DNA of 64,000 nt from Limonium bicolor (taxonomy: Eukaryota; Streptophyta; Magnoliopsida; Caryophyllales; Plumbaginaceae), in assembly GCA_023374045.1 (NCBI GenBank), contig CM041781.1:144266982-144330981 (forward strand), in the 5' to 3' direction. The notes beneath the pieces are model-generated. The model did not search any database. It was given only the letters and a program-made list of their open reading frames with translations, and was not told where the DNA came from. How positions within the stretch are numbered: the stretch's first letter is position 1; each line of letters begins with the position of its first letter. Positions 1 to 64,000 of this stretch are shown here, piece by piece. Both the position numbers and the translations under genes were made by a program.

Positions 1-2302
1 GAACAGATTATTCAGAGAGCAGTTGGATAAGACCGTGGTTGTATTCATCGATGACATCCTCATCTATTCAAAGTCTAAGGAAGAGCATGAGAGTCACCTC
101 CGACATGTACTTGAGATCTTAAGGGAGAACCAGCTTTATGCTAAGTTCTCCAAATGTGAGTTTTGGTTGGACAGAGTTTCCTTTTTAGGACATGTTATCT
201 CAGATGCTGGGATCGCAGTGGATCCAGCAAAGATAGAAGCAGTTCGCAGTTGGCCTAGGCCAAGGACAGTGACTGATATCAGGAGTTTCCTGGGTTAGCC
301 GGTTACTACAGAAGGTTTGTCAGAGACTTCTCCAAATTAGCAAAACCTATGACCAGTTTAATGAAGAAAGATGCACCATTCACATGGACTACAGAGTGTG
401 AATCATCATTTCAGTTTTTGAAGAACGCTTTGACATCAGCACCAGTTTTGACAATACCTGAAGGCACTGAGGGTTATGAAGTTTACTGTGATGCATCAGG
501 AAGGGGATTAGGGTGTGTACTCATGCAGAATGGGAAGGTAGTCGCCTACGCTTCCCGACAGTTGAAGAAACATGAGGAAAACTATCCCACACATGACTTG
601 GAGCTCGGAGCTATTGTTTTTGCCTTGAAGATCTGGCGCCACTACCTGTATGGTGTCCAGATGACCGTCTATTCGGATCATAAGAGTTTGAAGTATGTAT
701 TCACCCAGAAGGAGTTAAACATGAGACAAAGAAGATGGGTTGAATTTCTTAAGGACTATGACATTGATTTGCAGTACAAAGAAGGGAAAGCTAATGTTGT
801 AGCAGACGCACTGAGTCGACGAGCACATTCTCTAAATGTCATTGTGGCTAGCTCGAGTCTTATGGACGACATACGTAGCGCACAGCAGAGTGATCAGCGA
901 ATGATGGAGATCAGTCAGAAGTTGTCTGACGGTACATTTGAGGGTGGAAAGTATGAGTTTCAGCTACATGATGATGGACTAATCAGATTGAAGGGCAGAT
1001 TGTGTATTCCCAGAGACAGCACAGATATAAAGGAGCATATTCTTCGAGAGTCCCACACTTCTTCCACATCTGTCCATCCAGGAGCTTCTAAGATGTACAA
1101 AGATCTAAAGAGGTATTTCTGGTGGAGTGGTATGAAGGGCGACGTGACAGAATATGTGATTCGATGTCTCACTTGTCAGAAAGTGAAATTCGAACATAGA
1201 CGACCAGGAGGTATGGTACAGTCTATGCCAGTTCCAGAGTGGAAATTTTACGATATCTCTATGGACTTCGTGGTGGGACTACCACCTACGAGAGGAGGAC
1301 TTAATATGATTTGGGTTGTTGTTGATCGACTGACTAAAGTTGCTAGGTTTATTCCGATGAAAGACACTTGGAAAGTGCCAAAGTTAGCAGAACTATTTGA
1401 GCAGGAGATTATCAGACATCATGGAGTACCAAAGACTATTGTTTCAGATCGAGACACTAGATTTCTCTCACGATATTGGCGAGCTACTCGCGAAGCACTT
1501 GGCACTGAATTGAAGCTTAGCACAGCATTTCATCCTCAGACAGATGGTCAGTCAGAGAGGACTATTCAGACCTTAGAGGACATGCTACGAGCATGTGCCT
1601 TGGATTTTCAGGGCAGCTGGATAGATAGATTACATCTCATCGAGTTTGCATACAATAACAGCTATCACGCCTCTATACAGATGTCACCTTTTCAGGCATT
1701 ATATGGCAGACCATGTCGCACACCATTGTGCTGGGACGAGTCTAGTGAGACCGTCATCATTGGGCCTGAGTACTTGGAGCAAGTCAGGCAGAAGTACAAC
1801 AAATCAGAAATAACATGAAAGCAGCACAAGACAGACAGAAATCATATGCTGATGAGAGGCGACGAGACCTTGAGTTCGCGGTTGGCGACCAGGTATTTCT
1901 ACGAGTATCACCCATGAAGGGTGTATTCAGATTTGGGCAAAAGGGCAAGCTAAGCCCGAAATTTGTAGGACCCTACGCTATCATAGAGCGGGTGGGCCTT
2001 GTGGCATATCGACTTGATTTGCCAGCAGAGTTGGGCAAAGTACACAATGTTTTTCACGTGTCTCAGCTTAAGAAATACATGCCTCATCCTTCTCATGTTC
2101 TACAACCAGAGACACTCTCATTAGAACCAACAATGCGGTATGTGGAAACACCGCAACGAATCTTAGACAGAAAGACACGAGATACTCGAAACAAATCTGT
2201 GAGCCTAGTAAAAGTTCTTTGGTCAACCACGATGTGGAAGAGGCCACATGGGAACTAGAAGCGGATATGCGAGCGAAGTTTCCCTCATTATTTACCGACT
2301 AG
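1..2302 (+). pseudogene. gypsy pol, C-terminal part: RT end, RNase H, integrase, chromodomain-like tail
   Basis: This polyprotein copies element RNA into DNA and inserts it. Visible in order: the RT catalytic block FIDD (codons near 44-55) with the FSKCEFW motif; RNase H from about 349 with CDASG, an [10 protein letters not shown] glutamate helix, YSDHK and VVADALSRR; the integrase HHCC finger (His near 1060-1080, CLTC near 1170); the integrase DDE core with [15 protein letters not shown] and QTDGQSER; then VGPYAI and a chromodomain-like end, VKVLWS. Frame breaks lie near 293 (one base lost, the FLG/LAGYY junction), near 1795-1805 (before NNMKAAQ) and near 2224 (after VLWS). After the last shift the frame reads through VEEATWE to TAG at 2300-2302. 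It is a decayed copy; the family and direction are certain. Confidence 0.93.
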
Positions 2303-2315
2303 ACACTTTAGTCTA

Positions 2316-2354
2316 GGGTACGTGGGCGTACCCCTCTTTTTTTTTGGGGGTAGA
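2316..2354 (+). promoter_or_regulatory. Hairpin plus polypurine-like tract, module 1 (element A)
   Basis: A perfect 7-bp stem GGGTACG / CGTACCC with loop TGGG (2316-2333) is followed by a T run and GGGGGTAG. The same arrangement occurs in the LARD (48791-48827) and in the minus element G (59831-59866). It is probably an internal or second polypurine tract for plus-strand priming; that role is inferred. Confidence 0.6.
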
Positions 2355-2710
2355 GCCTTTTTCGTTTGTGAGTTCAGAAACATTTTGTTGCACTTTAGTG
2401 CATTTCAGTGACACTTTGTCTTGTATGTGTTCTTGTGTAACACTGTACTTGAATGTACTTTGTACTTCTACTTGTTGGGGTGTACTTTGTTACACTACAA
2501 TGAAAAGTTTATGTGCACTACTCTGCACTATTAAGATATGAAAAGTGACTGTGTTATTACATTACACTATATTGTTCCAAAGTATTCCTGTTGTGTTTGA
2601 TGTACACTGTGAACTTAGGAATATAGAGACTTGGGACTTGATCCCTACTAGATTGAGTTGTGGATACTTAGTGGAACTTGATTCCCCACAACCTTATAAT
2701 TTAGATATGA

Positions 2711-9809: not shown

Positions 9810-10202
9810 AATTGATTTAAAATTTTCATTAGCATGTTAATAAGGTCTAGGAATGACCTTTAGGTCTTATACAAGGTTACACCAAGTCTAGAACAAGTAT
9901 TTGCTTAAATGACTTTGAGGTGTTTTCTTGTGTTTTGTTTGGTTTAATTGTCTTCCATAGTTTCCTAAGGACTTAATTAGCCTTATCAAATCATAATTGA
10001 GTATTATTATCTCTTGGTAGCTCTTTGGGTCCTTACCAAGTTCACTCCAAGCTTAGAGCATGTTTTTGCTCAAACTGTGTTTATGGTACTTTATTTTTTT
10101 TACTATGGTTTAAATTGTTCACTAATGTTTCTAAGGCCCTTTTTAGCCGTAATATTCCATAGTTTAATGTTTAAACAACATATCAAGGTTTGGGGAATTT
10201 CA
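9810..10202 (-). repeat. LTR fragment B (5' end of a minus-strand LTR)
   Basis: Read on the minus strand it starts TGAAATTCCCCAAACC at 10202 and is collinear with the start of LTR G (59571 leftwards), sharing the AAACCATAG and CTTAGAGCA blocks. It is cut at 9809 by element A. Its start lies exactly at the break in the AlkB reading frame, so this LTR either inserted there or is the 3' LTR of an element that lost pol. No polypurine tract precedes it, which favours insertion. Confidence 0.75.
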
Positions 10203-27216: not shown

Positions 27217-27254
27217 TTAGGTTGTTAAATCTATAAAAAAAAAAGAGGAGATCA

Positions 27255-41199: not shown

Positions 41200-44100
41200 T
41201 GAAATACCCCAAACCTTAATGTGTTAATTAAATGTGTAATTATTATCTTCTAAGGCTAATTAAGTCCTTAAGAACATTGGTGAAGAAATAAAAACCAAAA
41301 AAAAAAGAAAATGCGTAAAAGCCACAAAACGTGAAAACACGTGTTTAATTATTTTAGGAGGTATATAACCTTCACTAGGTTATAAATATATTTTTATACC
41401 CTAATTACACACTAAGAACATGTGGGAAAAATTCCGGGAGAAAACGGATCCAAACAATGCGTTAAAACGCTAACGGAGTCTTAAAGCGCGTTTTTCGAGA
41501 AAACCCGAAAACTTGACTTTAAACGGTTAAACGACCCCGTAAAAATTATAGTCAAATATATAACTATAATGAAACATTAATGGAAGCCTAAGGGCTATCA
41601 AAATTTAAGATAAGAAACGAGAAAATTCCGAGAAACGGGCCCGGTTAGTGAATAGTGCTAAAACCGGGTAGAAATTAACGAGCATTTTCTGTAAAAAACC
41701 GGAAAACGCTCCAGCTGGTATTATATTAGTGGGGCCGGTTATGTAACTAGTAAGCAGCCCCCCTCTCTTTTATTAGTAAACAAGAAAGAAAGAAAAGAAA
41801 GAGAAAGCAAAAAAGTAGAAAGAAAAGTACAAATCACTTTAACACTCTCGATCTCTCTCCCATTCCTATTCTCTCACTCACGTTTCTCCCCCCCATCTGA
41901 ACTCTCCTTCTTATCCAGCCAAGTTTGGCGATTTTGAAGCTCCTCCGGCAGCCTCACTTCCTCTCCTTGTACAAGCTCCATTCATTGCTCCAACTCTCAA
42001 AAATAATTACGTATTTGTAATCCCCGCATCCTCCTCTATCATTCCCTCTTTTCAAAATTCAAAAAGGATGAGTTTCATCTCCATGGGTTTTCCCCATTTG
42101 AAGAGAAAATGGCACCAATGGATAGCTTGGAGTCTCCTCTCTCTCTCTCTAAGGTAAAATATTCATGAAAAACTTATTTTACTCCTCCTGTTGTGTTGGC
42201 CGATTTTGCCCATCCTCATGTCTTGTTTTCTTCTTGTTTTGGAGCTTCATTTCAACCCTCCAATGGTGGAATAATCCCCTTCTTGATTCAAGGGTGAGAA
42301 CCCTTCTTAAAAAGCTTCAAAAAGGTAAACCCTAACCTTGGTGTTCTAATCCTTGCATTGAATTGTGTTATCTTAAGGGTTAGAATTTTAATGGTGTGCT
42401 TTTTGTGTGATTTGGATGTTGAGATGGAGTTTGGTAACTCCATCACCTAATTGACCGAAATTGGGAAAAAGTGGAGCAAGAGGAGGATTAAGGAGAGACT
42501 TGTGAATTAAGGTAAGAAATCTACCTTAAGACTTATTTTGAATGCTTTAGGATTGGGATGGGTTAAATTAAAATAATGAACCCAAATTAGGTGAAATAAT
42601 GTAGTTGGTTGAATCTGAGAGAGATTGTGAACTTGTGTTGATTTAAGGGCCAAGTGCCATTGCATTTGAGTTTGTGTTTATATTGTGGTTTATTGAGATT
42701 TTGGAGTTATGTTGTTGTTGATGGACTTTGAAGATTTATTATGTGCTGGTAGGACCCTTTTAAGGGTGTGGCTAGATTAGGATTGAAAATGATGTGAATT
42801 GATGGTTTGGAGATGTTAAGTTTATGGGGAGGTTATGGCAAAATTTTGATAGAAAAAGAAGTGCTTTAAGGTGACTTAGTGAATTGGGGGACCTAAGTAA
42901 TGGTAGTGTTGAGTAGAGTGGAGTGGTAGCCTTATAATGGTAGATGGATAATGAGATAAGAGAGTGCAAAATCTGTAGCATAATGATGCTTGGTAACTTG
43001 GGATTTCAAGAGAAAGAGTTGGTGTTTGTAACTTGTGAAACAAGGAGTGAATGTGGGTTTTAGAAGTACATTTATGTAGGAATGATTGGTAATGGTCATT
43101 GATGGATTTGATAAGTTTGGTAGGAGGTAAGAGCTATCAAAAGGAAATAGAAATGCACAAGTGCGCAAATGCAAGAATATGAAAAGTGAGTTTGTTGAAT
43201 TTGGGCAAGAAATGGGTGGTGGATTAAACCAATTATTTGAAGTGGTTTAGAGCATGTTTTGAGGTGTTTAATTATGTAGGAAACTTGTGGAAAGTTTATG
43301 GAAAGAATAGGGGTGGATTAAGGGCTGATTTAGGGTTGAAAAATGACCTTTATAGCAGTTTTTAGCAGGGTCCGGGACCTAGGATATGTACTAAGTCCCG
43401 GACCGCATCAAAAAACATGCCGAGAGTGAATGCAGGAATTGGTCCGGGACTAAGTCCCGGACCAAGTCCAGGACCAATGTCAAAATAGGCCGAAAGTGAA
43501 TTTCAGAGGTGGTCCGGGACCTTGGGTCCGGACCAAGTCCCGGACCAGGGCAAAATTGCCTAAAATATGTTTTAAAGTGTTCCAAAGTGGGGGATTGATG
43601 GGTAATGGTTTTAGATGTTGTTAAGGCCTTGTTTGGTGACTTTTAAAGGTACTAAGAAGTATAAACAAGTGTTGGAAGTGATTGAGAAAGTTGTGAGTTT
43701 AAGTACACAAAGTTAAACCGAAATAACGGGATAACGTGGTAAGTACGGGAGTAGCAATTATATACCTACCGCAACGCCTTAATATTAATTGAACCCTTTG
43801 ACATGTAAATAGTGGTTCAAGAGTAAGACATGAGGAACAAGTGTGAACTGAGGAACATGAGAACACCCGGTAAGTAATTCCCCACGGTGACAGGTATGGT
43901 TTTCTTGCAACCTGTGTCTTACCGGATTACACCGGCTTGTATGCCAATGTGTTTTTCTGTGTGTTTGCCACCTTGCAAGATAAAGCATGAAATGAGTTTA
44001 TAGTAATTCATTATTGTGGCGTAATTAATTCCGATACCGTTTAACCTTAATTCTGTGTTAAATAATAGTTACCGACTTTAGGTTCACATAAGAGACCGGT

Positions 44101-45412
44101 ATTCGGAATAAACGTCCCAACCCACGGGAACGTTCTAACTACGGCTATCCGTGTGTTAGTGTATGTTGTGATTAAGTGTGATGTATGTGACTTGTTTAGT
44201 ATGTTGTTGTTATTGGATACTGTTATCCGTGTTGTTGAAATGGGATGCGATTCCCTTATGTGATTAACAAAGTTAGTAAAACTATATGATGTATGTATGT
44301 GATAAATTCCATAAAGGAACCTTTAACTAATAAGTATATGTTATGTATGGTGAGGAATCCGTTCGTTCCGGTCGCGCACGTTTTGTTTGGGAGTTGATGT
44401 ATATATGTGAATTAACTCCCATCCTGTTATGTTAGGGTTGTTTTCCTTCATTGGATTTCGACCTCCCACTAGCTTAGCCCAAGCTTACCTACCCAACTTC
44501 CAATCAGGTTAGGGGGAAATCATGTTTAATGTTGGTAGGGTGTTGATGCCTAAGTTCGCTTCGACTCCCTCTTTATTACGTTACGGTTGTTTTTCCTCCT
44601 TGAATTACAACCACCCACAAAGCTTAACCAAGGCTTACCTACCTCATCATTATTGGAGCTAGGGGAAATTGTGCAAGGTGTGATCGGTCCTACATGAGGC
44701 CGCCACACCTAAGTAAAGAAAATGTATGTATGTTGTGCTCGGGCTTCTATCACCCCGGCACTCCCTAAGTAAAGTTTATGTTCTCTAAGAAGAATGGAAC
44801 TAAGTTGTGTGTATGTTATCAAGTGAAGCGTATGGTTATGTTGTGTGTGCTAATCTTGTGTTTGTGTCATACTAATGGATGTTTGCTTTTAAGCATGAAG
44901 TATGTGTGTAGTTGTGTATGTTTAAATAAAATCAACCGTATGCTAAGACGACAATTAGTTGTGCGTGACCCGGTAGCATGCGGGCTGCGGGATTACCATA
45001 CCCGCAAAGGTGCTGAGCCCCTTGGGGGCCACCCTTTTCTTCTCTTTCCTGTTTCAGGTACAAGGAACTGGAGGCCGTTCAAGAGTAGGACGGGGTAGTT
45101 GATTGTATGTGGGTAGTCATGAAAATTGTGGATGTGCTGTAGGTGTAGTAAGACCGAGATTGTATCGGCGTTAGTTGGTAATTACTCGGTACAGTTGTAA
45201 TGTAAGTGTATAATGAATGTTGAACATGGAACAGATTAATGTGTAGTTGCTCGGGAGTTTAGTCCATCAGACCGGTACGATGTATGTACGTTAGCCTTGT
45301 TAGTCACGTGGGTGGCTAACGGCGTGTAACACCAAAGAGTTGAGTTATGTTGTGAGTAGTGATTTCCGCTGCAAGTGTTGTTAAGTGTGTTGTGTGTAGT
45401 TGGGGTGTTACA
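41200..45412 (+). repeat. LARD 5' LTR (4213 bp)
   Basis: It starts TGAAATACCCC and ends GGGGTGTTACA. It contains a GGTCCGGGAC/GTCCCGGACC cluster (43368-43550), a GAGCCCCTTGGGGGC palindrome near 45014 and a hairpin at 45299-45320. Against the 3' LTR, long stretches are identical by eye with scattered substitutions and small indels. Confidence 0.92.
43368..43550. repeat. GC-rich palindromic cluster in the LARD 5' LTR
   Basis: Repeated GGTCCGGGAC and AGTCCCGGACC units in both orientations stand out in an AT-rich LTR. The 3' LTR copy is at 52414-52583, one unit shorter. Confidence 0.8.
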
Positions 45413-49174: not shown

Positions 49175-50260
49175 ATATATACTGTTGTGACTTATGAAGA
49201 GGTATGAAACCGTTATACAACCTAGTAAGAATTAAATTCCCTAGGTAACTAGATTTAAAATGAATCTGGAAGATGATCGATGGACAGAGTTCCACCCTTG
49301 GAGATGTAATGATTATGACTAGAAAAACTAAAAGATAGAAAATGGTACATGCTTGAATTAGTTGTTGGTTGAAAATGAAGTGGGAGGTGAAACTTGATTA
49401 TCATGAGATCAAGGGAAGCCGAACACAAATTGGGGTGGAAAGATAGTTCAACACTGATGCCGATCACATCAGGGTTGGATGATTCTTGAAACTCCCTATA
49501 AGTGGTCACAAATAATCACATCAGGAATAAGATGCAGTTAGCAATAATTGGACTTGGAGTTGTATTGTGTTTTCAAAAGAATTTTAAATTGGTGATTTCA
49601 GATTTTCAATTAATATTTTTAAGACTCTTAAGTGGTATTTTCAAAAGAAGGACTACTTTTATTTGACCTCGTAAAGGATTTTCAATTGGTATTTTCCAAT
49701 AAAGGATTTCATTATACTTAACCTCATATAGAGTATTTTCCTATTACTTGCTCACGAGCTGAGGACGTATGAGCCTTTGTCTTCGGACCGGCGACATGAG
49801 AAGTATATTTTAAAGATGTATGCAATGGTTTTGATCTCCCAAAGGAACGGGGACCAGATGTCCATCGCGACCGGGTTCTGCGGGATCACAATGTATATGT
49901 ACTCAACATGGGTCTCGAACCCATGAAGAGATGGAAAAGGAATTTCTAGTTGATATACATGCTAAGACATGTTGTGTGGTATATGTGATGAATATTATTT
50001 TGACCTCGAGTCCTAAGGTGGTTGAGTTCTGAAAGTGTTATGTTTCCCAGACCTATGTGTCTGAAGGTTGTTATGTTATCAAGACCTACGAGTCTAAATG
50101 TTGTTACGTTACCCAGACCCAAGAGTCTAAGGGTTGTCATGTATGCATGGATGTGTTACCCGGGCCGTTAAATCCGAGGTTGTGATGTAAAATACGTTTG
50201 TCATGGAAGTTTTATGTTGCAAGTAATCCCCGTATTCTACCAATGATGTGTGGGAAGTGT
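45430..50260 (+). other. LARD internal domain, non-coding
   Basis: No open frame with retroelement similarity. Around 48150-48300 it is collinear with the inverse complement of LTR C 12770-13240 (shared TTACGCCTCTGCACTCTGTA, TTGCACTTGTGC, GGGAAATGT and CTTATGGTGTGAT), so part of the core was built from an LTR of another family. A hairpin-polypurine module lies at 48791-48827, and a (TA)n run at 49135-49180. From 50040 to 50130 a short unit with AGACCTA(T/C)GTGTCT and TTGTTATGTTA is repeated about three times. Confidence 0.7.
48791..48827 (+). promoter_or_regulatory. Hairpin plus polypurine tract, module 1 (LARD)
   Basis: Stem GATTACG / CGTAATC with loop TGGG (48791-48808), then TTTTAAGGGGGGGTAGAG. 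It parallels module 1 of elements A and G, with three stem pairs changed on both sides. Confidence 0.7.
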
Positions 50261-50297
50261 GAACTTCGAGGACGAAGTTCTTTTAAGGGGGGTAGAT
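50261..50297 (+). promoter_or_regulatory. Hairpin plus polypurine tract, module 2 (LARD)
   Basis: Stem GAACTTCG / CGAAGTTC with loop AGGA (50261-50280), then TTTTAAGGGGGGTAGAT, touches the 3' LTR start at 50298. Confidence 0.85.
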
Positions 50298-53200
50298 TGA
50301 AATACCCCAAACCTTAATGTGTTAATTAAATGTGTAATTATTATCTTCTACGGCTAATTAAGTCCTTAAGAACATTGGTGAAGAAATTAAAACCAAAAAG
50401 AAAAAGAAAATGCGTAAAAGCCACAAAACGTGAAAACACGTGTTTAATTATTTTAGGAGGTATATAACCTTCAATAGGGTTATAATATATTTTTATACCC
50501 TAATTACACACTAAGAACATGTGGGAAAAATTCCGGGAGAAAACGGAACCAAACAATGCGTTAAAACGCTAATGGAGTCTTAAAGCGCGTTTTTCGAGAA
50601 ACCCGAAAACGTGACTTTAAACGGTTAAACGACCCCGTAAAAATTATAGTAAATATATAACTATAATGAAACATTAATGGAAGCCTAAGGGCTATCAAAA
50701 TTTAAGAAACGAAAAAATCCGCGAAACGGGCCGGTTAGTGAATAGTGCTAAAACCGGGTAAATTAACGAGCGTTTTCTGTAAAAACCGGAAAACACTCCA
50801 GCTGGTATTATATTAGTGGGGCCAGTTTTCTAACTAGTAAGCAGCCTCCCCTCTCTTTTATTAGTAAACAAGAAAGAAAAGAAAAGAAAGAGAAAAGTAA
50901 AAAGTAGAAAGAAAAGTACAAATCACTTTAACACTCTCTCTCTCCCATTCCTATTCTCTCACTCACGTTTTCTTCCCCCCCATCTGAACTCTCCTTCTTC
51001 CTCCAGCCAAGTGTGGCGATTTTGAAGCTCCTCCATGGCAGCCTCACTTCCTCTCCTTGTACAAGCTCCAAACTCAAAATAATTACGTATTTGTAATCCC
51101 CGCATCCTCCTCTATCATTCCCTCTTTTCAAAATGAAAAAGGATGAGTTTCATCTCCATGGGTTTTCCCCATTTGAAGAGAAAATGGCACCAATGGATAG
51201 CTTGGAGTCTCCTCTCTCTCCTAAGGTAAAAATATTCATGAAAAACTTATTTTTACTCCTCCTCTTGTGTTGGCCGATTTTGCCCATCCTCATGTCTTGT
51301 TTTCTTCTTGTTTTGGAGCTTCATTTCAACCCTCCAATGGTGGAATAATCCCCTTCTTGATTCAAAAAGGTAAACCCTAACCTTGGTGTTCTAATCCTTG
51401 CATTGAAATTGTGTTATCTTAAGGGTTAGAATTTTAATGGTGTGCTTTTTGTGTGATTTGGATGTTGGGATGGAGTTTGGTAACTCCATCACCTAATTGA
51501 CCGAAATTGGGAAAACGTGGAGCAAGAGGAGGATTAAGGAGAGACTTGTGAATTAAGGTAAGAAATCTACCTTAAGACTTATTTTGAATGCTTTAGGATT
51601 GGGATGGGTTAAATTAAAATAATGAACCCAAATTAGGTGAAATAATGTAGTTGGTTGAATCTGAAAGAGATTGTGAACTTGTGTTGATTTAAGGGCCAAG
51701 TGCCATTGCATTTGAGCTTGTGTTTATATTGTGGTTTATTGAGATTTTGGAGTTATGTTGTTGTTGATGGACTTTGAAGATTTATTATGTGCTGGTAAGA
51801 CCCTTTTAAGGGTGTGGCTAGATTAGGATTGAAAATGATGTGAATTGATGGTTTGGGAGATGTTAAGTTTATGGGGAGGTTATGGCAAATTTTGATAGAA
51901 AAATAAGTGCTTTAAGGTGACTTAGTGAATTGGGGGACCTAAGTAATGGTAGTGTTGAGTAGAGTGGAGTGGTAGCCTTATAATGGTAGATGGATAATGA
52001 GATAAGAGAGTGCAAAATCTGTAGCATAATGATGCTTGGTAACTTCGGATTTCAAGAGAAAGAGTTGGTGTTTGTAACTTGTGAAACAAGGGGTGAATGT
52101 GGGTTTTAGAAGTGCATTTATAAGAATGATTGGTAATGGTCATTGATGGATTTGATAAGTTTGGTAGGAGGTAGGAGCTATCAAAAGGAAATAGAAATGC
52201 ACAAGTGTGCAAAATGCAAGAATATGAAAAGTGAGTTTGTTGAATTTGGGCAAGAATTGGGTGGTGGATTAAACCAATTATTTGAAGTGGTTTAGAGCAT
52301 GTTTTGAGGTGTTTAATTATGTAGGAAACTTGTGGAAAGTTTATGGAAAGATTAGAGGTGGATTAAGGGCTGATTTAGGGTTGAAAAATGACCTTTATAG
52401 CAGTTTTTAGCAGGGTCCGGGACCTAGGATATGTACTAAGTCCCGGACCGCATCAAAAAACATGCCGAGAGTGAATGCAGGAATGGGTCCGGGACTTAAG
52501 TCCAGGACCAATGTCAAAAATAGGCGGAAAGTGAATTTCAGAGGTGGTCCGGGACCTTGGGTCCGGACCAAGTCCCGGACCAGGGCAAAAATTGCCTAAA
52601 ATGTGTTTTAAAGTGTTGCAAAGGTGGGGGATTGATGGGTAATGGTTTTAGATGTTGTTAAGGCCTTGTTTGGTGACTTTTAAAGGTACTAAGAAGTATA
52701 AACAAGTGTTGGAAGTGATTGAGAAAGTTGTGAGTTTAAGTACACAAAGTTAAACCGAAATAACGGGATAACGGGTAAGTACGGGAGTAGCAATTATATA
52801 CCTACCGTAACGCCTTAATATTAATTGAACCATTTGACATGTAAATAGTGGTTCAAGAGTAAGACATGAGGAACAAGTGTGAATTGAGGAACGTGAGAAC
52901 ACCCGGTAAAGTAATTCCCCACGGTGACAGGTATGGTTTTCTTGCAACCTGTGTCCTACCGGATTACACCGGCTTGTATGCCAATGTGTTTTTCTGTGTG
53001 TTTGCCACCTTGCAAGATAAAGCATGAAATGAGTTTATAGTAATTCATTATTGTGGCGTAATTAATTCCGATACCGTTTAACCTTAATTATGTGTTAAAT
53101 AATAGTTAACCGACTTTAGGTTCACATAAGAGACCGGTATTCGGAATAAACGTCCCAACCCACGGGAACGTTCTAACTACGGCTATCCGTCTGTTAGTGT

Positions 53201-54447
53201 ATGTTGTGATTAAGTGTGATGTATGTGACTTGTTTAGTATGTTGTTGTTATTGGATACTGTTATCCGTGTTGTTGAAATGGGATGCGATTCCCTTATGTG
53301 ATTAACAGAGTTAGTAAACTATGTGATGTATGTATGTGATAAATTCCATAAAGTAACCTTTAACTAATAAGTATATGTTATGTATGGTGAGGAATCCAGT
53401 CGTTCCGGTCGCGCGCGTTTTGTTTGGGAGTTGATGTATATATGTGAATTAACTCTCATCCTGTTATGTTAGGGTTGTTTTCCTTCATTGGATTTCGACC
53501 TCCCACTAGCTTAGCCAAAGCTTACCTACCCAACTTCCAATCGGGTTAGGGGGAAATCATGTTTAATGTTGGTAGGGTGTTGATGCCTAAGTTCGCTTCG
53601 ACTCCCTCTTTATTATGTTACGGTTGTTTTTCCTCCTTGAATTACAACCCCCACAAGCTTAACCAAGGCTTACCTACCTCATCATTATTGGAGCTAGGGG
53701 AAATTGTGCAAGGTGTGATCGGTCCTACATGAGGCCGCCACACCTAAGTAAAGAAAATGTATGTATGTTGTGCTCGGGCTTCTATCACCCCGGCACTCCC
53801 TAAGTAAAGTTTATGTTCTCTAAGAGAATGGAACTAAGTTGTGTGTATGTTATCAAGTGAAGCGTATGGTTATGTTGTGTGTGCTAATCTTGTGTTTGTG
53901 TCCTACTAATGGATGTTTGCTTTTAAGCATGAAGTATGTGTGTAGTTGTGTATGTTTAAATAAAATCAACCGCATGCTAAGACGATAATTAGTTGTGCGT
54001 GGCCCGGTAGCATGCGGGCTGCGGGATTACCATACCAGCAAAGGTGCTGAGCCCCTTGGGGGCCACCCTTTTCTTCTCTTTCCTATTTCAGGGACAAGGA
54101 ACTGGAGGTCGTTCGAGAGTAAGACGGGGTAGTTGATTGTATGTGGGTAGTCATGAAAATTGTGGATGTGCTGTAGGTGTAGTAAGACCGAGATTGTATC
54201 GGCGTTAGTTGGTAATTACTCGGTACAGTTGTAATGTAAGTGTATAATGATGTTGAACATGGAACGGATGTGTAGTTGCTTGCTCGGGAGTTTAGTCCAT
54301 CAGACCGGTACGATGTATGTATGTTAGCCTTGTTAGTCACGTGGGTGGCTAACGACGTGTAACACCAAAGAGTTGAGTTATGTTGTGAGTTGTGATTTCC
54401 GCTGCAAGTGTTGTTAAGTGTGTTGTGTAGTTGGGTGTTATGTTTCA
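50298..54447 (+). repeat. LARD 3' LTR (4150 bp)
   Basis: It is near-identical to the 5' LTR, with deletions of several tens of bases (for example the unit lost from the GC cluster and a stretch near 51361). The end reads TGGGTGTTATGTTTCA instead of TGGGGTGTTACA, five extra bases before the terminal CA. The position of the ACTAA duplication supports this as the true end. Confidence 0.9.
52414..52583. repeat. GC-rich palindromic cluster in the LARD 3' LTR
   Basis: Same GGTCCGGGAC/GTCCCGGACC units as at 43368-43550, with part of one unit deleted. Confidence 0.78.
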
Positions 54448-55526
54448 ACTAAGCTCAGAAACACCTTGTGACACAAAATGTGCGCTAAAACACCTTAAAG
54501 CACGTTTTGTGTATGAGCTCTAAGATAATGACTTTTGTCACTTTAAAGACTAGATTACATTCTTTATATCATTTATGTGACATGATAGACTATATTATAA
54601 AGTCTAAATCAAAGTTTAAAAATAAAATCAAAATGGGTGATTTTGGATGAATAGTACCCAAAATAACATTTAATTACTTAGTTTTAACCCTGGTCAAATG
54701 TCATCCATTGACCGTACCACCCATTGCCGCCTTATATTAGCTGTCATACCCACCCATTAAGCAACATAAATATCAAGCCCAATCTAATGAATCATCATAT
54801 ACTATTTCATAAAGTAACATTAATTAACTTAAAAGGCAAAACTAGCTTTCTTACCTCATTTGCCTCCTTCCGGCCGACATCAATCACCTTCATCCTCTCT
54901 TTTGCTTCTCTCCAAAACTGTAGGAACTCATCAATTTCAGAAGAGAACAACAATTGACATAGGTAAGCTTATTAAGCCATTTTATGTTCATTCTCTTCAC
55001 ATTTCTTTCCTCTTTCCATGGAGCTAAGTATCAACCATTTCCATCCATGTTTCTAGCTTGTTTTGGAGGTTAAAAGGAGGGCAATTCTCGGCTGTAATAA
55101 GAGAAGGAGGTGGAGAATTCTAATCTTGTTCTTAAGGTATAAAAATGTGCTTTAAGCACTTATATCTTTATTCCTATCATTACCGGTTGTAAAGCTTTGT
55201 TTCTTAGGCTTAATATCTTCTTCTTAACATACTTATTCAGTTGATATATCAAGAGCTTCAAGGATTAGCCAAATCCATGCCAAAAACACCATTTTTGGCA
55301 TTTTAATCAAGGTGAAAATTAGCCATCTTCTAATTTGAGTTATACCAGTTTTAAAGCTTGGTTTAGTAGCTCTTTTGATACTCTTTATGTTATGTAAAAA
55401 TAGGCCGAAGACAACCTTTGCTTGCCTTGGTATTCTAAGGTAAAATTACCTTGAAAATATACATTAAACACTTCTTATGGTTAGCTCTTTGTTTCTTCAC
55501 TTGGTATATTAATATGTGCTTATACA
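54448..55526 (+). repeat. LTR E, second part
   Basis: It resumes after the LARD with the duplicated ACTAA and runs until element G inserts at 55527. It includes a GTGCGCTAAAACACCTTAAAG block that resembles the early part of the other LTRs. No LTR end is seen, and a short frame at 54724 is not a convincing gene. Confidence 0.6.
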
Positions 55527-58500
55527 TGTAACACCCCTACATCGTACTTCACAACAAATTGAAATCACAGCGGAAATAAACAACTAAACATTAACTAAAC
55601 GCTTCGGTGCTACAACGCCGTCAACCACCCACGTGGTTAACAAGGCAGAATAAATACAAGTGTACCGGTCTGATGATCAGACTCCCGAGCATAGAACTAA
55701 AACCATAAATACATCATATACAATACCGAGTGTTTAATTACATTTCTTCACTGTAAACTGCCAATATACCGCCACAGTAGTATCAACGGAATCAAAATAT
55801 AATGCCACAGGAGCACAGGCGCATCCCGGGCTCAATATCCAAAATAACCCAAAGTACAACTGCAGTCTATAACCTACAGCCACTCTGCTTCCTCGATCCT
55901 CATCCTGCAGTAAAAATATGGAGCCCTCGAGGGGGTCAGCAACCCTTGGCTGGTATGGTTAACGCGCAGCCCATCGGCTACCGGGATACGCGCAACTAAT
56001 TGTCATGATGACATGGCATTCATTTATACATAGCATATCATAACATATGGCATAGCAACATCATTGCATAGCACAACATCACATACACAGTGGATACTCT
56101 TTCCACAATAACAAACCAAGAAGGTTAAACAACATAAGAGCCTAGAGAATGGTTCACTCTCATGTTAAGCTCGTTACACACACTCATTGCCGTTCTGTTA
56201 TTCGAACGAGTAACTTAAGTCATAGATGGTTCGGATATAGTGACCCGAACACACCACACACAACACATGTTCCCACTAAACCGATCATAAGTCAGAATAG
56301 GTAAGCTTTGGAGGAAGCTAGCGGGAGATCGAACGCCAAATGAAGGAGAACAATCTTAACAACATAAGAGTCGAATCTAATTCAGATATCTACTCTTAAA
56401 CTTACATGCATGACCGGACAACCGATTCCTCACTTCCCAGTTATCACTTGTTAGAAGTTCAACAGTGGAACTTAACAACAATTCACAAGTAAGTGGTAAG
56501 TCATGTTAGACACACACAAGGGAAATGAGTCACATCATAACATCACAATAGTATAACCAACTGTAAACTCATTACATGAATTAAGTCTTTCAAGGTTGTA
56601 AACATACAGAAAAAACATACAACACACAAGCCGGTGTAAACCGGTAGGCAACACTACAAGAAAACCATACCTTGGTCCTTGCTTCGATTGATTTCCACCG
56701 TAGGTCACTCCTATACATGTTTAAGAATGTCGGTTAATTACTTACTTAACTCCAAGTTTACTAAGTGTGTAACATGATTATTCGACATGTTTTAATGCCT
56801 AAACTTACCCTTGATTACTTACATTATACTCCCTAAGGCTTATTACTTAAGCCATACTTGTTTGTTTTTTTTTTTCAAGTTTAGGTCCGACCAACTTACC
56901 GACCGACCGACCTTACACAAGTCGGTCCATTCCAGAACATATTACCGTCAAAATTTTCTACTCCGACCGACCTTGTAAGTTCGGTCACATGTTCGGTCAA
57001 TTCCCAAGAGTTTCTTCCCCTTTGAAAATTCAGGCCCGACCGATCTTGGCAAGTCCGGTCGCAAGATCGGTCGATTCCCGAGACTTACTCACGTACAAAA
57101 ATTAGGCATGACCGAACTTGTAAGTCCGGTCCCAAGTTCGGTCTATTCTAGAGACTCAATCCATACTAAAAATCCAAGCCCGACCGACCTTGCAAGTCTG
57201 GTCCCCAAGGTCGGTCCATTCCATAAACCATTTCTCGCAGGGTAAACTGGGCTCGACCGATCTTGGCAAGTTCGGTCGCAAGATCGGTCTGCTCCAGACC
57301 CTTATTTTTCATTGCCCATTTAACTCCAACTTCACCTCATATATCCTAGTATGTCCTAACCTTATTTGTGCACTTCAAACACACCTTAAGACCTCCTTAA
57401 AACTCCTTAAATCATTCACTAAAATCCTCCTCAAGTATTTACACAAATTCTTATAAAAAGGTTTACACTTATAATGTTTTTCACTAAGTTTCTATGTGGT
57501 GTTTCATACCTATAACTCCCACTACTCCCAATGTTTTCTCACCACTACAACATCATCTCCCAAGCATCTTTTCTTCCTAAACAACTCCTTGAACACCTTA
57601 CAAGTTTATAGCTCCCCATGAAACAAATCACTTCATCCTTATTCACCAACATTGTACAAGTCCTAAACACAATCTCACCATGATCTTGAAATGTCCCAAA
57701 ACATTATTTTGCATTCTAAATCCTCTAAAACATTACCTAAGCCCTTTTTACATCTTTAAACACCTTAATGCATGTGTTTCTTCCATTAGTTGAACACTTA
57801 ACCATTCTAAACCTTTCCTAACTTACCAAACTCATTTTAAACCCTTAGAACTTCTTGTTTATTACCTAAATTTTGACATGAACTCTCCTAGAACATTACT
57901 AAACCAAAACACAATGTTTTCCACCATTAAACAACCAAGAACACTAAAATCCATCAAACACATTCTTATACACAAACTTCACAATTTAGCACTACATCAC
58001 AATATAGTGCATAATTTAAATTGCATGGCACTAGGCCCTTAAATATAACATGACTCTTAGGCCATTAAGATGCATAAAGAATCATAAACACTGAATTTCC
58101 CACAATATATTTGCCTTTGACCTGCAAATACACTCAACAACATATGCCTTTTACTAAGCCCTTGAGAACATTTACTAAGTCATCACCATTGGCTCCTTAG
58201 GTCATTTTAATAAGCAACATAAGCTCATTTCTCCTAAGACTTTAAACCACATTAGGCTAGCACATTTACCCCTTTTCCTCACAACTTCTTTCTTGTTTCC
58301 TTGACTAAATCGGACAAGGCTTTTAGTTGCTTGTCAACTTCTAAACATTATACAAATGATAAAATGAGTATACAAGCTTTATGCTTCATCTCATTGCAAA
58401 CCCTAGATTATACATTGTTTTAAAAACATTAAGATAGTTGTTTTACCTTAGAACTTGAAGAGAGTTTGAATATATATATCAAGAGACGACTCCACCTAGT

Positions 58501-59571
58501 CCATGAAAGGTTGGAATGAAGCTAGAACAAGGCAAGGTAAGGGCACCATTAGTGGTGATTTTCGGACAACATAATAACATGAAGGAAACATCATTTTTCT
58601 TTGAGTTTCCTTACCTTGAAGCAAAGGAGAACAACAATATGTGAAAAGATGAGCTCAAGCTCCTCCAATGGTGATTCCTCTTGGCACCGAAATGGAGCTC
58701 TTGGGATTTTGAGAAGATAGGAATGAAGAGCTTGATGAGACTAAGAGAATGGTGGTCTTAGAATTTGATTTGGCAAATAAGCTAGGAGATACAAGTGGTC
58801 AAAGATGGAAAATGATGGTGGTGTTGGTGTTGCTGTAGCAAATCGTGAATGAGAGCAAGAAGGAGATAGAAGAGAGGTTGAAGACGTGTGAATGAGAGGA
58901 GGGAAATGAGAAAGTGAGATAAGTTTGCTTTTAAGAAGATATTTATATCTTAAAGCAAATAGTAACCATTAGCCATCATTTGTTCACTTAATAAACTTAC
59001 ATGTGTGGTGACTCATTACTACAAAAACCGGCCCCCTTAATGTTACTAAGGGCATTTTAGTCTTTGTTGGCCAATTTAAATACTTATACAAACATATGTT
59101 ACAAACTAGCTTATTTTAGTTACTATTCACTAAAACAAGGCACATAGATGTGAAATTTTTGATTTCCCATTGATATAGACTTCCAAATGTGACACTATAT
59201 AGTACACATGTTAATTAAAGAGTAATGATGGACATTTAGCCATTCAAAACTCATTTACAAGACAATTTTTCAAAAATGTGCTTTAAGACTCCTTAAAGCA
59301 CATTTTGTGTTTTAACTTGTTTTCAAGCTTGGTTTTCTTTGGTAATCGGTTTAATATGTTCATTAGTATACAAATAAGGTCTTGGTAAGCTCATTAGGTC
59401 TCACCCAAGCTTATCCCAAGCTTAGAGCACATTTTAGCCCTAACTGACTTTAAGGCATTTATATGTGTTTTCTATGGTTTAAATTGTTTACTAATGTTTC
59501 TAAGACTCTTTTTAGTCTTAATATACCATATTAATATGTTTAAACAACATACTAAGGTTTGGGGTATTTCA
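55527..59571 (-). repeat. 3' LTR of gypsy G (about 4.0 kb)
   Basis: The minus-strand start TGAAATACCCC is at 59571 and the end GGGGTGTTACA at 55527. Landmarks: the hairpin at 55620-55641, a GCCCTCGAGGGGGT palindrome near 55924, and a GACCGACCTTG/AAGTTCGGTC cluster (56886-57292). No gene inside. Confidence 0.88.
56886..57292. repeat. GC-rich cluster of inverted GACCGAC/GTCGGTC units in LTR G
   Basis: Six or more units of about 60-70 bp each hold GACCGA(C/T)CTTG, CAAGT(T/C)CGGTC and (A/G)GATCGGTC. The cluster occupies the same relative part of the LTR as the clusters in LTR D and the LARD. Confidence 0.8.
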
Positions 59572-59608
59572 ATCTACCCCCCTTAAAAGAACTTTGTCCT
59601 CAAAGTTC
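59572..59608 (-). promoter_or_regulatory. Hairpin plus polypurine tract, module 2 (element G)
   Basis: On the minus strand GAACTTTG and CAAAGTTC form an 8-bp stem with loop AGGA, followed by TTTTAAGGGGGGTAGAT and the LTR start. Relative to the LARD, one C-G stem pair is T-A on both sides. Confidence 0.85.
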
Positions 59609-59880: not shown

Positions 59881-62800
59881 CTAAGAAGTAAACAATGACG
59901 GGTACTTCGCCTTCATCTTATCTTCCAGCTCCCAAGTGGCCTCCTCAACGTCCTGGTTAGACCAAAGAACCTTCACCAGTCTCACAGACTTATGGCGAGT
60001 GTCTCGAGTCTTAGTATCCAGAATCCGTACCGGAGTCTCCACTGATCGCATGGTCGGCTCTAAGGTTAGCCTTTCAGGCTGAAGCACATGAGACGGATGA
60101 GACATATATTTCTTCAACTGGGACACATGAAATGCATCATGCACCTTGCCCAGCTCGGCGGGTAAATCGAGTCTGTAAGCTACCGGGCCGATCCGCTCCG
60201 TCACAACATAAGGCCCCACATATTTTGGGCTCAACTTGCCTTTCTGGCCAAAACGAAATACTCCCTTCATGAGGGGATACCCTGAGAGAATACCTGATCG
60301 CCCACGGCGAACTCCAGGTCACGTCTGCGCACATCTGCGTACGACTTTTGTCTGTCCTGAGCTGCCTTCATATTAGCCCGAATCTGGCAAACTTCTGCCT
60401 GAACTTTTCAAGATACTCTGGTCCTATAATGACCGTCTCACTCGACTCATCCCAGCATAATGGCGTGCGGCATGGTCTACCGTACAAAGCCTGGAAGGGA
60501 GACATCTTCATCGAAGCATGATAACTGTTGTTGTAACTAAACTCGATCAGATGTAACTTATCAATCCAGCTGGTCTGAAAATCAAGTGCACATGCACGTA
60601 ACATATCCTCAAGTGTCTGGATGGTACGCTCACTCTGACCATCTGTCTGTGGGTGGAACGCTGTACTTAGCTTCATCTCGGTACCAAGCGCTTCCCGTGT
60701 GGATTTCCAATACCTTGAGAGGAATCTGGTATCCCTGTCAGACACAATTGTTTTTGGTACCCCATGATGTCTTACAATCTCTCTGTCGAAGAGCTCTACT
60801 AGTTTTGCCACTTTCCAGGTTCCTTCATCGGTATAAATCGAGCCACATTGGTCAGTCGGTCAACAACAACCCAAATCATATTCAGACCTCCCCTTGTAGG
60901 CGGAAGCCCTACTACGAAGTCCATAGAAATGTCATGGAACTTCCACTCAGGCACTGGCATTGGCTGTACCATACCACCAGGCCGTCGGTGCTCAAACTTG
61001 ACCTTCTGACAAGTGAGACACCTCAATACATAATCAGTAACATCCTTTTTCATTCCAGTCCACCAAAAATAACGTTTCATACCTTATACATCTTTGAAGC
61101 TCCGGGTGAATCGAAGTCGTAGAACAGTAGGATACACTCAGTATGCGCTCCTTCAGCTCAGCGCTACTCCTCGGAATACACAGTCGGCCATTCAGCCTAA
61201 TCAGGTCATCATCGTGGAGTCGGAAAGTCGTACTTCTGACCCTAGAATGTGCCATCAATAAGCTTCTGCCTGATCTCCAACATATACTGATCCGTCATCT
61301 GAGCACTCCGCACCTCTTCAACCAAGCCAGTATGAGAGACTAGCGAATGGAGAGAGTGTGCTCGGCGACTCAATGCGTTAGCTACCACATTGCCTTACCC
61401 TCTTTGTACTGTAGATTAATGTCGTAGTCGTTTAGAAACTCAAACTCCCACCTTCTTTGCCTCATGTTCAACTCCTTCTGAGTGAACAAGTACTTTAAAC
61501 TTTTGTGGTCAGAATAGATTGTCACACTTCACTTACCCCATACAAATAATGTCGCCATATCTTCAATGCGAAGACAATGGCACCCAGTTCTTAATCGTGG
61601 GTGGGTAGTTCTCTTCATGCTTCTTCAGCTGTCGGGAGCGTAAGCTACGATTCCCGTGTTGCATCAACACACAACCATACCACTACCTGATGCGTCGCAA
61701 TAGACCTCAAAACCATCTGGACCGTCTGGTATAGTCAGGACTGGTGCAGATGTCAGAGCATCCTTGAGACTCTGGAAAGAACTCTCACAGTCGACTCCAC
61801 TCGAATGGTGCATCTTCTTCATCAAGGAAGTCATCGGCTTCGAGACACTAGAGAAGTCCTTCACAAACCTCCTATAATAACCTGCCAGACCGAGGAAGCT
61901 CCTGATATCGGTAACTGTCTTCGGCCTAGGCCAGGTGCGCACTGCATCAATCTCTTGCCGGATCAAGAGCGATCCGGCCTCAGAAATCACTTGACCAAGA
62001 AAGGATACTTGGTTCAACCAAAACTCACACTTTGAAAACTTAGCATATAACTGATTCTTCCTCAATGTTTGTAACACATTTCTCAGGTGGCTTTCATGCT
62101 CACTTCTCGATTTCGAGTACACAAGAATATCGTCGATGTAGACTACCACTGACTTGTCCAACTGATCTTGGGACAAGCGGTTCATTAAGTCCATGAACTT
62201 AGCTGGTGCATTGGATAAACCAAACGGCATAACCGTAAACTCATAATGTCTATATCTTGTTCTGAATGCGGTCTTCTCAATGTCACTGTCACGGATGGCA
62301 ATCTGATGGTATCCGGATCGTAGATCTATCTTGGAGAATACTGATGCTCCCCTCAACTGATCAAATAAATCGTCGATGCGTGGTAAAGGGTAACGGTTCT
62401 TTACCATAACTGCATTCAGTTTTTTATAGTCAATACACAGGCGGAGACTACCGTCCTTCTTTTTCACGAAGAGGACCGGCGCTCCCCATGGTGAAACGCT
62501 AGGGCGGATAAATCCCTTGTCGAGTAGGTCTCTCAGCTGCTCCTTGAGCTCTGTCATCTCGGCTGGAGCCATACGATAGGGCACCTTCGCAATTGGTCCG
62601 GTGCCCAGAACCAAATCAATCTCAAACTCAACTTCCCGTGCTGGCGGCATGCCCGACAGTTCCTTAGGAAATACATCAGGAAACTCCGACACTACCGACA
62701 CATCTGGGCTAAACTCTGGATCTCTCTCTATGTCCTGGGCATAGCAGAGGTATACATCATTCCTCGTCGTAGTTCACGATACATAGCCATGGCGGTGATG

Positions 62801-63272
62801 ATCTGAGTCGAAGGCTCCCTGGGCCTCTGGCGGTAAGATATTGTAACCCCAGATGGAATCCAAAGAAGCAGACGATGCTCGGCACACAGGATTCTGCCCT
62901 TGTACCACTCCAACCAGTTCATTCCGACAATCACATCAAAACCAAGTCCGTCGAACTCTATCAAGTCGATCCGGAAACTCTTCACCTCTGATTCGTACAA
63001 CAACATCTCGGTGGTAGCGGGTACACCTGATCCGCTCTTTCGACGGGAGAGTGACTAGGAAGTCTGGCATCTCATCACCGTCTAACCCAGCCTCTCGCAA
63101 AGGATAGCGAAATAAATGTATGAGAGGCTCCGGAGTCGAACAAGATCGAAGCGTCCACGCCATTGACTGGAAAGGTACCGGTGAGGATTGTGCCGCTCTT
63201 GCCGGCTTCTGCCTCATTGCAGACACTCAGTATACCTCCCGTTCCGAGAGCACAGCCTAATTCATTGGCAAA
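59881..63272 (-). pseudogene. gypsy pol of element G: protease, RT, RNase H, integrase, chromodomain-like tail
   Basis: Minus-strand frame from a CTTATTAG acceptor (63273-63274): GTILTGTFPVNG and ILFDSGASHTFIS (aspartic protease, near 63190-63110), a shift, FDVIVGMNWLEWY (62930), then a long open RT stretch (62701-61664) with [39 protein letters not shown] and [13 protein letters not shown]. RNase H (CDASG near 61690) is broken. The integrase follows with [25 protein letters not shown] and QTDGQSER (61080-60600), then GKLSPKYVGPYVV and VKVLWS, stop at 59881-59883. At least five frame breaks (near 63090, 62715, 61660, 60805 and 60300) show it is inactive. The protease exon opens without an ATG in frame at the domain border, which fits splicing. 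Confidence 0.9.
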
Positions 63273-63440
63273 CTAATAAGTATTGGGTAACAACACGGTT
63301 GATATACTTCAACAACTCCACTTTATTCATTAATACACTCTTCTTACATTATACGTTGGTTTACACTGTTGACATAACTAACACATATATAACATCCTTA
63401 ACATACACTGGCTTAACACATTACATAATCATACAAGGCT
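63273..63440 (-). other. Intron-like spacer between AlkB stop and protease frame
   Basis: About 170 AT-rich bases with no coding signal, ending (minus strand) in ATACTTATTAG, a plausible splice acceptor for the pol frame. Normal Tekay elements have continuous gag-protease coding here. Confidence 0.5.
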
Positions 63441-64000
63441 TTAAAACTGTCTGAAGGTCAAATTCAAACGTCCGGGTTTCATGTGTGTGGCGTTGATCAC
63501 TGCCGACGGTGCGGTATTCAGTTTAATCTTCCTGATGCCATGATATAGCATCCTTGATTGCCCACCCATGATTAACACATCTCCTGATTTTATTACTAAC
63601 TTCTTTGCGAGATCAGCACGCTTTGCTCGCCATATATAACACTACGGTATCACCAATGGACCAAGACACCACGGGTACTCCCTTACTTAGAGACTCAGGT
63701 GACTCGTCCTTATCTTGGTGTAAACCTAATCGTCCACCTTTCTGGTAGAAGTTCACAATACACAAATCTGCTTTAACACTTGGAATTGAATCCGTTTCAA
63801 CTTGCTGAGCAATTCCCACGGCGTGGTTAACGACCGCAAGGAACTCCTCAGGTATCATCGGTACAGTTGCTCCATCTTCAGCTCGCACTTTTGATATGTC
63901 TTGGTGTAAGGAATCCAGTCCTTACCCATGCACATCATCTTCAATTTCATTCTTGATCCACTCGGGTATTCAGGTGTGTAGAACCTCCTGGTGTTGCTCC
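63441..64000 (-). pseudogene. AlkB-type 2OG-Fe(II) dioxygenase, central and C-terminal part, in gypsy G
   Basis: Minus-strand frames give RRFYTPEYPSGSRM and KLKMMCMGKDW (63980-63915), then after a one-base shift VPMIPEEF and ADLCIVNFYQKGGRLGLHQD with KDE (63850-63710), PVVSWSIGDTVVLY, and after an inserted base near 63612 SGDVLIMGGQSRMLYHG and GRLNLTFRQF, stop TAA at 63441-63443. HQD is the HxD iron pair, YHG the second iron His, and R-L-N-L-T-F-R holds the 2-oxoglutarate Arg, all diagnostic of AlkB. The plant ALKBH1-like group is closest by motif. These enzymes remove methyl groups from DNA or RNA. The active-site residues remain but two frameshifts break the frame. The N-terminus lies beyond the window. 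It sits upstream of protease on the same strand, matching the gag-AlkB order at 10203-11990. Confidence 0.88.

Follow-up and report, generated by a model that had tools for sequence, protein, structure and literature searches.

An AlkB-type dioxygenase domain between gag and protease of a putatively chromodomain-type Ty3/gypsy retrotransposon in Limonium bicolor

Complete Ty3/gypsy retrotransposons in the genome of Limonium bicolor carry an AlkB domain between the zinc knuckles of gag and the protease, in a frame of its own with its own stop, and both its catalytic residues and purifying selection on it have been kept. The best explanation as a whole, to which we give a probability of roughly 60%, is that a captured plant AlkB has been kept as a working part, would be expressed through splicing to one of two acceptors, and would serve as a demethylase in the particle. 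The window, meaning the whole stretch of 64,000 nucleotides that was analysed, is C6:144266982-144330981 of a 2.92-Gb assembly of 2686 contigs, which was also the genome searched.

A Pfam search of the window returned two minus-strand matches to PF13532, at 63613-63921 (E 1.4e-14, profile 56-137) and 63441-63641 (E 2.1e-14, profile 141-194), and the two frames read as a single AlkB domain broken by a frameshift. Because a further frame, from 63998 to about 63930, holds the upstream part, the homology reaches the window edge; the AlkB (2OG-Fe(II) oxygenase) exon as a whole, with two frameshifts, fills 63441..64000 on the minus strand and continues past the window to about 64198 (L009 6180-5423). 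The HxD motif (63720-63712), the second histidine (63542-63540) and RxxxxxR (63470-63450) could all be read from the sequence, and the domain that the first-pass annotation had described upstream of a protease, on the minus strand at 63441-64000, is confirmed by these motifs and by PF13532 in two frames. Its placing of the AlkB stop some 170 b before the protease also holds, as the protease frame opens at 63272 (RVP_2 E 9.4e-12). The aspartic protease lies in two frames at 62728..63272 on the minus strand (second RVP_2 match E 4.6e-07), and the spacer from the AlkB stop to the protease, 63270..63440 on the same strand, is non-coding, with stops in all three frames, and is diverged and gapped between the two subfamilies described below. 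Frameshifts in AlkB, in the protease and in the reverse transcriptase-integrase part mark the window copy as decayed.

Around this domain the element is complete, running from 55527 to about 70099 (~14.6 kb) with TG..CA LTRs and a 5-bp target duplication. Its 3' LTR, about 4.05 kb, occupies 55527..59571 on the minus strand as defined by alignment of the LTR pair, and the duplication ATACA at 55522-55526 is matched by ATACA outside the 5' LTR, beyond the window at about 70100. A polypurine tract, AAGGGGGGTAG in the element sense, was read at the inner LTR edge (59572..59590, minus strand), and the primer site is TGGTATCAGAGC, which we take to be of the initiator-Met type. Since the LTR pair, the ATACA duplication, the primer site and the polypurine tract enclose AlkB, the domain arrived at this locus inside one 14.6-kb element. 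The LTR pair differs by a K2P divergence of 0.0214 over 4022 sites; at a substitution rate of 1.3e-8 per site per year the insertion is about 0.8 My old. Past the window, gag (7759-7109 in L009) is followed by the zinc knuckles (6667-6389) and by the AlkB frame from 6180.

This enclosure also bears on whether a host AlkB gene or pseudogene simply lies by chance beside a truncated retrotransposon, as the separate frame with its own stop, the UTR-like spacer and the broken state of the window copy might suggest. However, gag and the 5' LTR stand on the far side of AlkB, the 5-bp target duplications match, and the arrangement recurs in other copies. An LTR or target-duplication boundary in 63240-63440, which the first-pass annotation had named as evidence against its claim, is absent, and the element edges with target duplication lie at 55527 and ~70099. 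Both the target duplication and the other copies refute chance juxtaposition, and we put its probability at next to nothing.

Downstream of the protease on the minus strand are the reverse transcriptase and the start of RNase H (61664..62773; PF00078 E 3.6e-37, PF17919 E 7.1e-08), an integrase core with a broken frame (60368..61083; 83-88% identity by tblastn to the second window copy, with an rve match of E 0.038, under its cut-off), and the integrase C-terminus, SH3_Tf2-1 with a weak chromodomain match (59884..60318; PF24626 E 1e-22, PF00385 E 7.8e-05). The chromodomain match scores 23.0 bits against a curated cut-off of 25.1, and the Chromo matches at the expected integrase C-terminal place, E 7.8e-05 and 1.6e-04, both fall below that cut-off. 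In L018, a copy with a single open frame in the order protease-RT-RNase H-integrase, RVP_2, RVT_1, RT_RNaseH and Integrase_H2C2 exceed their cut-offs and rve falls below.

The window start truncates a second member of this clade, from subfamily B, at 16..2373 on the plus strand (blastn 74% identity); its AlkB lies upstream (L011 7949-8686, tblastn). LTR-piece matches at about 41200-44525, 50226-53562 and 9810-10202 may be solo or partial LTRs of the AlkB clade, and a tandem repeat of five copies of a unit of about 73 b lies inside the LTR at 56959-57304. The window also holds a Transposase_21 match (PF02992, E 9.7e-67; 27237-28631, plus strand) and a MULE transposase (E 6.1e-26; 16344-16850, minus strand), both in keeping with plant DNA. 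Rfam (at the gathering threshold) and tRNA scans of the window gave no matches.

Elsewhere in the genome the element AlkB is abundant. A PF13532 search gave 38,326 loose candidates, the best 150 of which all hold the full profile (150/150, E <= 2.6e-45) and, in all but one row, are stop-free inside; with P0001, an AlkB on an ENA contig that is discussed below, as query, 150/150 scored places match at 70-74% identity. These totals are lower bounds, not copy numbers. We read 21 places located through AlkB, 8 loci from the PF13532 search and 13 more, together with the two window copies; all 23 have CCHC knuckles upstream and the protease downstream of AlkB, and gag was matched in 21 of them. The copies fall into two diverged subfamilies, A and B, both carrying AlkB, and by their coordinates the gap from the last AlkB codon to the protease is 166-171 b in A and about 110 b in B.

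Because the first 21 places had been located via AlkB, a sample located by protease-RT alone was added, in which 401 b at the expected AlkB position were read in 20 of the 95 places found by this query. AlkB was present in 19 of the 20, and at the remaining place, L042, that position is taken by a subfamily-B element, with its polypurine tract and LTR edge. By eye, at least 12 of the 95 protease-RT rows coincide with one of the best 150 AlkB rows, all 174-178 b apart. Other copies with AlkB upstream of the protease, which the first-pass annotation had proposed to look for, are thus the rule, at 21/21 AlkB-located places, in both window copies and at 19/20 of those found by protease-RT. AlkB frames recur every 10.0-10.1 kb at C1:497439466, 497449587, 497459630 and 497469727 and at C2:373193559 and 373203691, and this spacing suggests tandem arrays of the element, perhaps with common LTRs.

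To the same genome belong relatives that lack the domain. From the best 150 scored places of a protease-profile search, six AlkB-less loci (L050-L055) were chosen, non-randomly, to span score and frame types. They resemble the AlkB element in RT (66-80% identical) and in the order gag-CCHC-protease-RT, but all six lack AlkB. In L050, L051 and L052 a single open frame spans gag to RT; in L055 the frame is open from inside gag into the protease, and in L053 and L054 it is broken between CCHC and protease. We assume the lineage name Tekay for the AlkB-bearing element and these relatives alike; the Tekay-type feature of gag and pol in one frame, with gag leading straight into the protease, is absent from the AlkB-bearing element, in which AlkB, stops and predicted introns intervene. 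The AlkB-bearing copies (22 rows from 21 places, as L002 and L016 are the same place) group in an RT tree as one clade with a local support of 0.992, apart from the six relatives; this tree omits L001, L003 and L013, which were removed manually, and any copy below a set minimum of 170 RT residues. In an AlkB tree nine element AlkBs form one clade (1.0); OsALKBH1 and P0001 group with this clade, separated from seven metagenome AlkBs with a support of 0.947. The simplest reading is one capture of a plant-type AlkB by the element lineage.

The plant's own AlkB gene was not found among the best 150 genome matches to either PF13532 or P0001, because the high-copy element AlkBs fill the scored lists. 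P0001 is a 141-aa AlkB on an 814-b ENA contig, 68-74% identical to the element AlkBs and closer to them than the rice protein is; it may be the host gene of another plant, or the AlkB of a similar element elsewhere. Protein-database searches gave 90 and 3 matches, and the 12 examined look bacterial except for P0001. Scans of viral contigs with RT and with P0001 gave no relatives, and a plasmid search for relatives gave two bacterial records only. The last residues of gag exon 3 (ALNVVDRSEA) are similar to the protease start (ILSVCNEAEA; about 6120-6178 and 7246-7290 in L012), and the AlkB-less relatives have the similar INVMSRAEAEA at the corresponding point; this likeness is possibly the trace of a short duplication flanking the captured AlkB cassette.

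Several observations indicate that the captured domain has been under selection. The whole PF13532 domain is matched in the element AlkB (profile 1-194, E 1.4e-49 and 9.8e-50), and the iron ligands H161, D163 and H221 and the 2OG-binding R245 and R251 (L012 numbering) are invariant in 17/17 aligned proteins, nine of them element copies. Among the 19 copies not chosen by AlkB, H161, D163, H221 and R251 are kept in all and R245 in 18. Between subfamilies, AlkB dN/dS is 0.12 (26 pairs, with a nearly saturated dS of 1.9); inside a subfamily it is 0.14 for A (78 pairs) and 0.18 for B (1 pair), values that all lean low as these copies were picked for an intact AlkB; it is 0.15 (171 pairs) in copies not chosen by AlkB, a set of subfamily A only and all near L003 in protease-RT. 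For comparison, dN/dS within A is 0.09 for protease-RT (45 pairs), 0.13 for gag exon 1 (36) and 0.16 for integrase (3), the pairs being non-independent throughout.

These values decide against passive transduction, in which a captured fragment is copied along without function, as reported for Bs1 of maize. LTR elements do acquire pieces of host genes, with Bs1, rice and sorghum cases described in the accessible text of one article (PMC11963269), and the AlkB segment is open in 11 of the 19 copies located by protease-RT and not open in 8, as a passenger would allow. Against this stand the dN/dS of 0.12-0.18 in two subfamilies, the kept catalytic residues and an AlkB exon whose median gap fraction between subfamilies is 0.00; dN/dS values near 1, which would have supported a passenger, were not seen. 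We reject it on dN/dS and judge it highly improbable. That the AlkB is fixed at its position in the element family and held there under constraint we take as close to certain.

The enzyme is of a plant ALKBH1-like type. The predicted fold of the L012 AlkB (mean pLDDT 86.1) has OsALKBH1 (5xoi) as its best PDB match, at E 3.8e-28, TM 0.81/0.90 and 48% identity, followed by E. coli AlkB (about 1e-17) and animal ALKBH1 (about 1e-12), and zebrafish ALKBH5 ranks 48th (E 2.6e-08, 17% identity). Two PDB sequence searches agree, with the rice chain at E 1.9e-70 and 1.2e-75, E. coli AlkB at about 1e-22 and human or mouse ALKBH1 at about 1e-11; neither ALKBH5 nor FTO is among the 21 rows listed per search. 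The whole AlkB domain aligns with OsALKBH1 (PDB 5xeg/5xoi), whose chain is 50-54% identical to the element AlkBs, and with E. coli AlkB, both of which, unlike the element's, are cellular and not element-borne. Plant RNA viruses of the Alphaflexi-, Betaflexi- and Closteroviridae likewise have an AlkB, on a viral RNA genome, as the accessible text of one article names them (PMC9289625; see also PMC544882), but the best viral fold model matches the L012 AlkB at only E 1.9e-11 and 20% identity, far below OsALKBH1, and capture from a plant RNA virus is rejected on this ground.

How the domain might be expressed is suggested by interruptions in gag. The gag frame of L012 runs into a stop a few codons past TTLQ and picks up again 94 b later, the interruption being bounded by GT and AG; comparable breaks lie ahead of the zinc knuckles (82 b) and behind them. 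The residues flanking the predicted intron 1 are direct neighbours in three of the six AlkB-less relatives (L050, L051, L054), in which the exon-2 matches are weak (E 0.12-0.68). Splice sites were compared in an alignment of 18 copies (15 A, 3 B), from which L029 was excluded as its gag part did not align; L001-L007 stood outside it, and three of these correspond to places already represented by L014, L016 and L012. All 18 copies keep the donors of the three introns as well as the protease acceptor; the intron-1 acceptor is kept in 17/18, as is the AlkB acceptor AG|GA. The intron-2 acceptor is kept in 15/15 A and 0/3 B copies, B having, by reading, another AG in frame. The exon-3 donor ends in phase 1, and the AlkB acceptor is in frame from it in 10/10 copies tested. 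The predicted acceptor of the Pol exon (AG at 63257..63258 on the minus strand, exon from 63256) is in phase with the same donor, by reading in both A and B. In subfamily A another in-phase AlkB acceptor lies 18 b further upstream, so that either site may be the one used. Between A and B, identity is 70% in the AlkB exon and 68% in the protease, 51-60% in the gag exons, and 43-48%, with more gaps, in the introns and spacer; gag exon 2, at 51%, is hardly above the introns (43-47%).

Because donor and acceptors are conserved and in phase, and because subfamily B has no ATG before the AlkB core, we predict one donor after the zinc knuckles and two acceptors, one before AlkB and one before the protease, and consider it probable that they would form a splicing switch between Gag-AlkB and Gag-Pol. 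AlkB could instead be used but made from its own promoter, an internal start or read-through, with no spliced Gag fusion. For this speak an ATG at residue 34 of the stop-to-stop frame in subfamily A, ahead of the Pfam match (residues 43-251), and the separate ORF of the 2-ODD in an orchid element, as the accessible text on that element gives it (PMC9289625); against it, the stretch ahead of the AlkB core in B is conserved although it lacks an ATG, and the AlkB and protease acceptors share phase with one donor in both subfamilies. We hold this alternative to be rather unlikely.

We therefore favour the two-acceptor scheme, set out here as a proposal built on conserved sequence. A chromodomain-type Ty3/gypsy lineage would have taken up a plant AlkB gene, probably once, and, while multiplying greatly and dividing into two or more subfamilies, would have retained this gene as a functional component, with gag apparently divided by short GT-AG introns. 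Splicing from the phase-1 donor after the zinc-knuckle exon to the acceptor before AlkB would yield Gag-AlkB, ending at the AlkB stop; splicing from the same donor to the acceptor before the protease would remove AlkB and yield Gag-Pol. More speculatively, Gag-AlkB may co-assemble with Gag and so bring the enzyme inside the virus-like particle, where it might strip methyl or alkyl groups from packaged RNA, cDNA or bound host RNA and help the element past host methyl marks or damage that block reverse transcription. That AlkB acts on the element's nucleic acid in particles we put forward tentatively, at somewhat less than even odds. The many copies with open frames make tests of expression, splicing and enzyme activity direct.

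Splicing reportedly sets Gag against Pol in other plant LTR elements, through the Ogre intron and the shGAG of EVD, and we know of no plant LTR element in which an alternative acceptor adds an enzyme to Gag. In BARE, too, splicing sets Gag versus Pol output, according to the accessible text of that work (PMC3735527), as we predict for the AlkB element.

The first-pass annotation had known of no described plant Ty3/gypsy lineage with an AlkB, and here it needs correction: one is described in Phalaenopsis, of another branch, AlkB class and layout, as far as the accessible part of that article goes (PMC9289625). In that account, Gypsy_Pa_2799 is a Tat/Ogre-type element of 25 kb with Tat/Ogre RT, a dual RNase H, a tRNA-Arg primer site and gag and pol in a single ORF1, and the paALKBH5-like m6A eraser, active as an m6A demethylase in vitro, lies at the C-terminus of a separate 565-aa ORF2; the other genomes of a 121-genome screen are reported there to lack such a domain (PMC9289625). 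Like the Limonium element it is an amplified plant Ty3/gypsy with PF13532 and its iron and 2-oxoglutarate residues (PMC9289625, same text), and on the shared PF13532 alone our element could be a member or close relative of that family. But ours has a putatively chromodomain-type integrase end, an OsALKBH1-like AlkB between gag and pol and predicted gag introns; in place of the tRNA-Arg primer site and 25-kb length it has TGGTATCAGAGC and about 14.6 kb, and in place of an ALKBH5-class 2-ODD, a class taken from the orchid description, an AlkB nearest to OsALKBH1 by sequence and fold and then to E. coli AlkB, with ALKBH5 at the fold rank and ALKBH5 and FTO missing from the sequence rows as given above. 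Membership, judged against the published description of the orchid family, is rejected on primer site, length and AlkB class, and we consider it exceedingly improbable.

In the open-licence literature, a scope outside which most subscription journals fall, we found the orchid case only and no AlkB-bearing chromovirus. What is new here is the branch, the AlkB class, the layout and the predicted expression; an AlkB-bearing plant Ty3/gypsy as such was already known from Phalaenopsis. Rice ALKBH1 is reported, in the accessible text of one study, to demethylate 6mA of single-stranded DNA in vitro (PMC10469495), and this activity together with the OsALKBH1-like fold makes repair of cDNA or template a candidate role beside m6A removal. 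It is plausible, at a little under even odds, that a chromovirus with a two-acceptor switch packs a DNA/RNA repair-type demethylase into its particles and so cleans up the RNA template and cDNA of the element itself; this would be a second independent invention in plants with another enzyme class than the orchid's. Taken together, the two elements suggest that plant LTR retrotransposons have repeatedly captured a nucleic-acid demethylase, the branch and the AlkB class differing from case to case. Such recurrence speaks for methyl marks or alkylation damage on the element's nucleic acid as a limit on retrotransposition.
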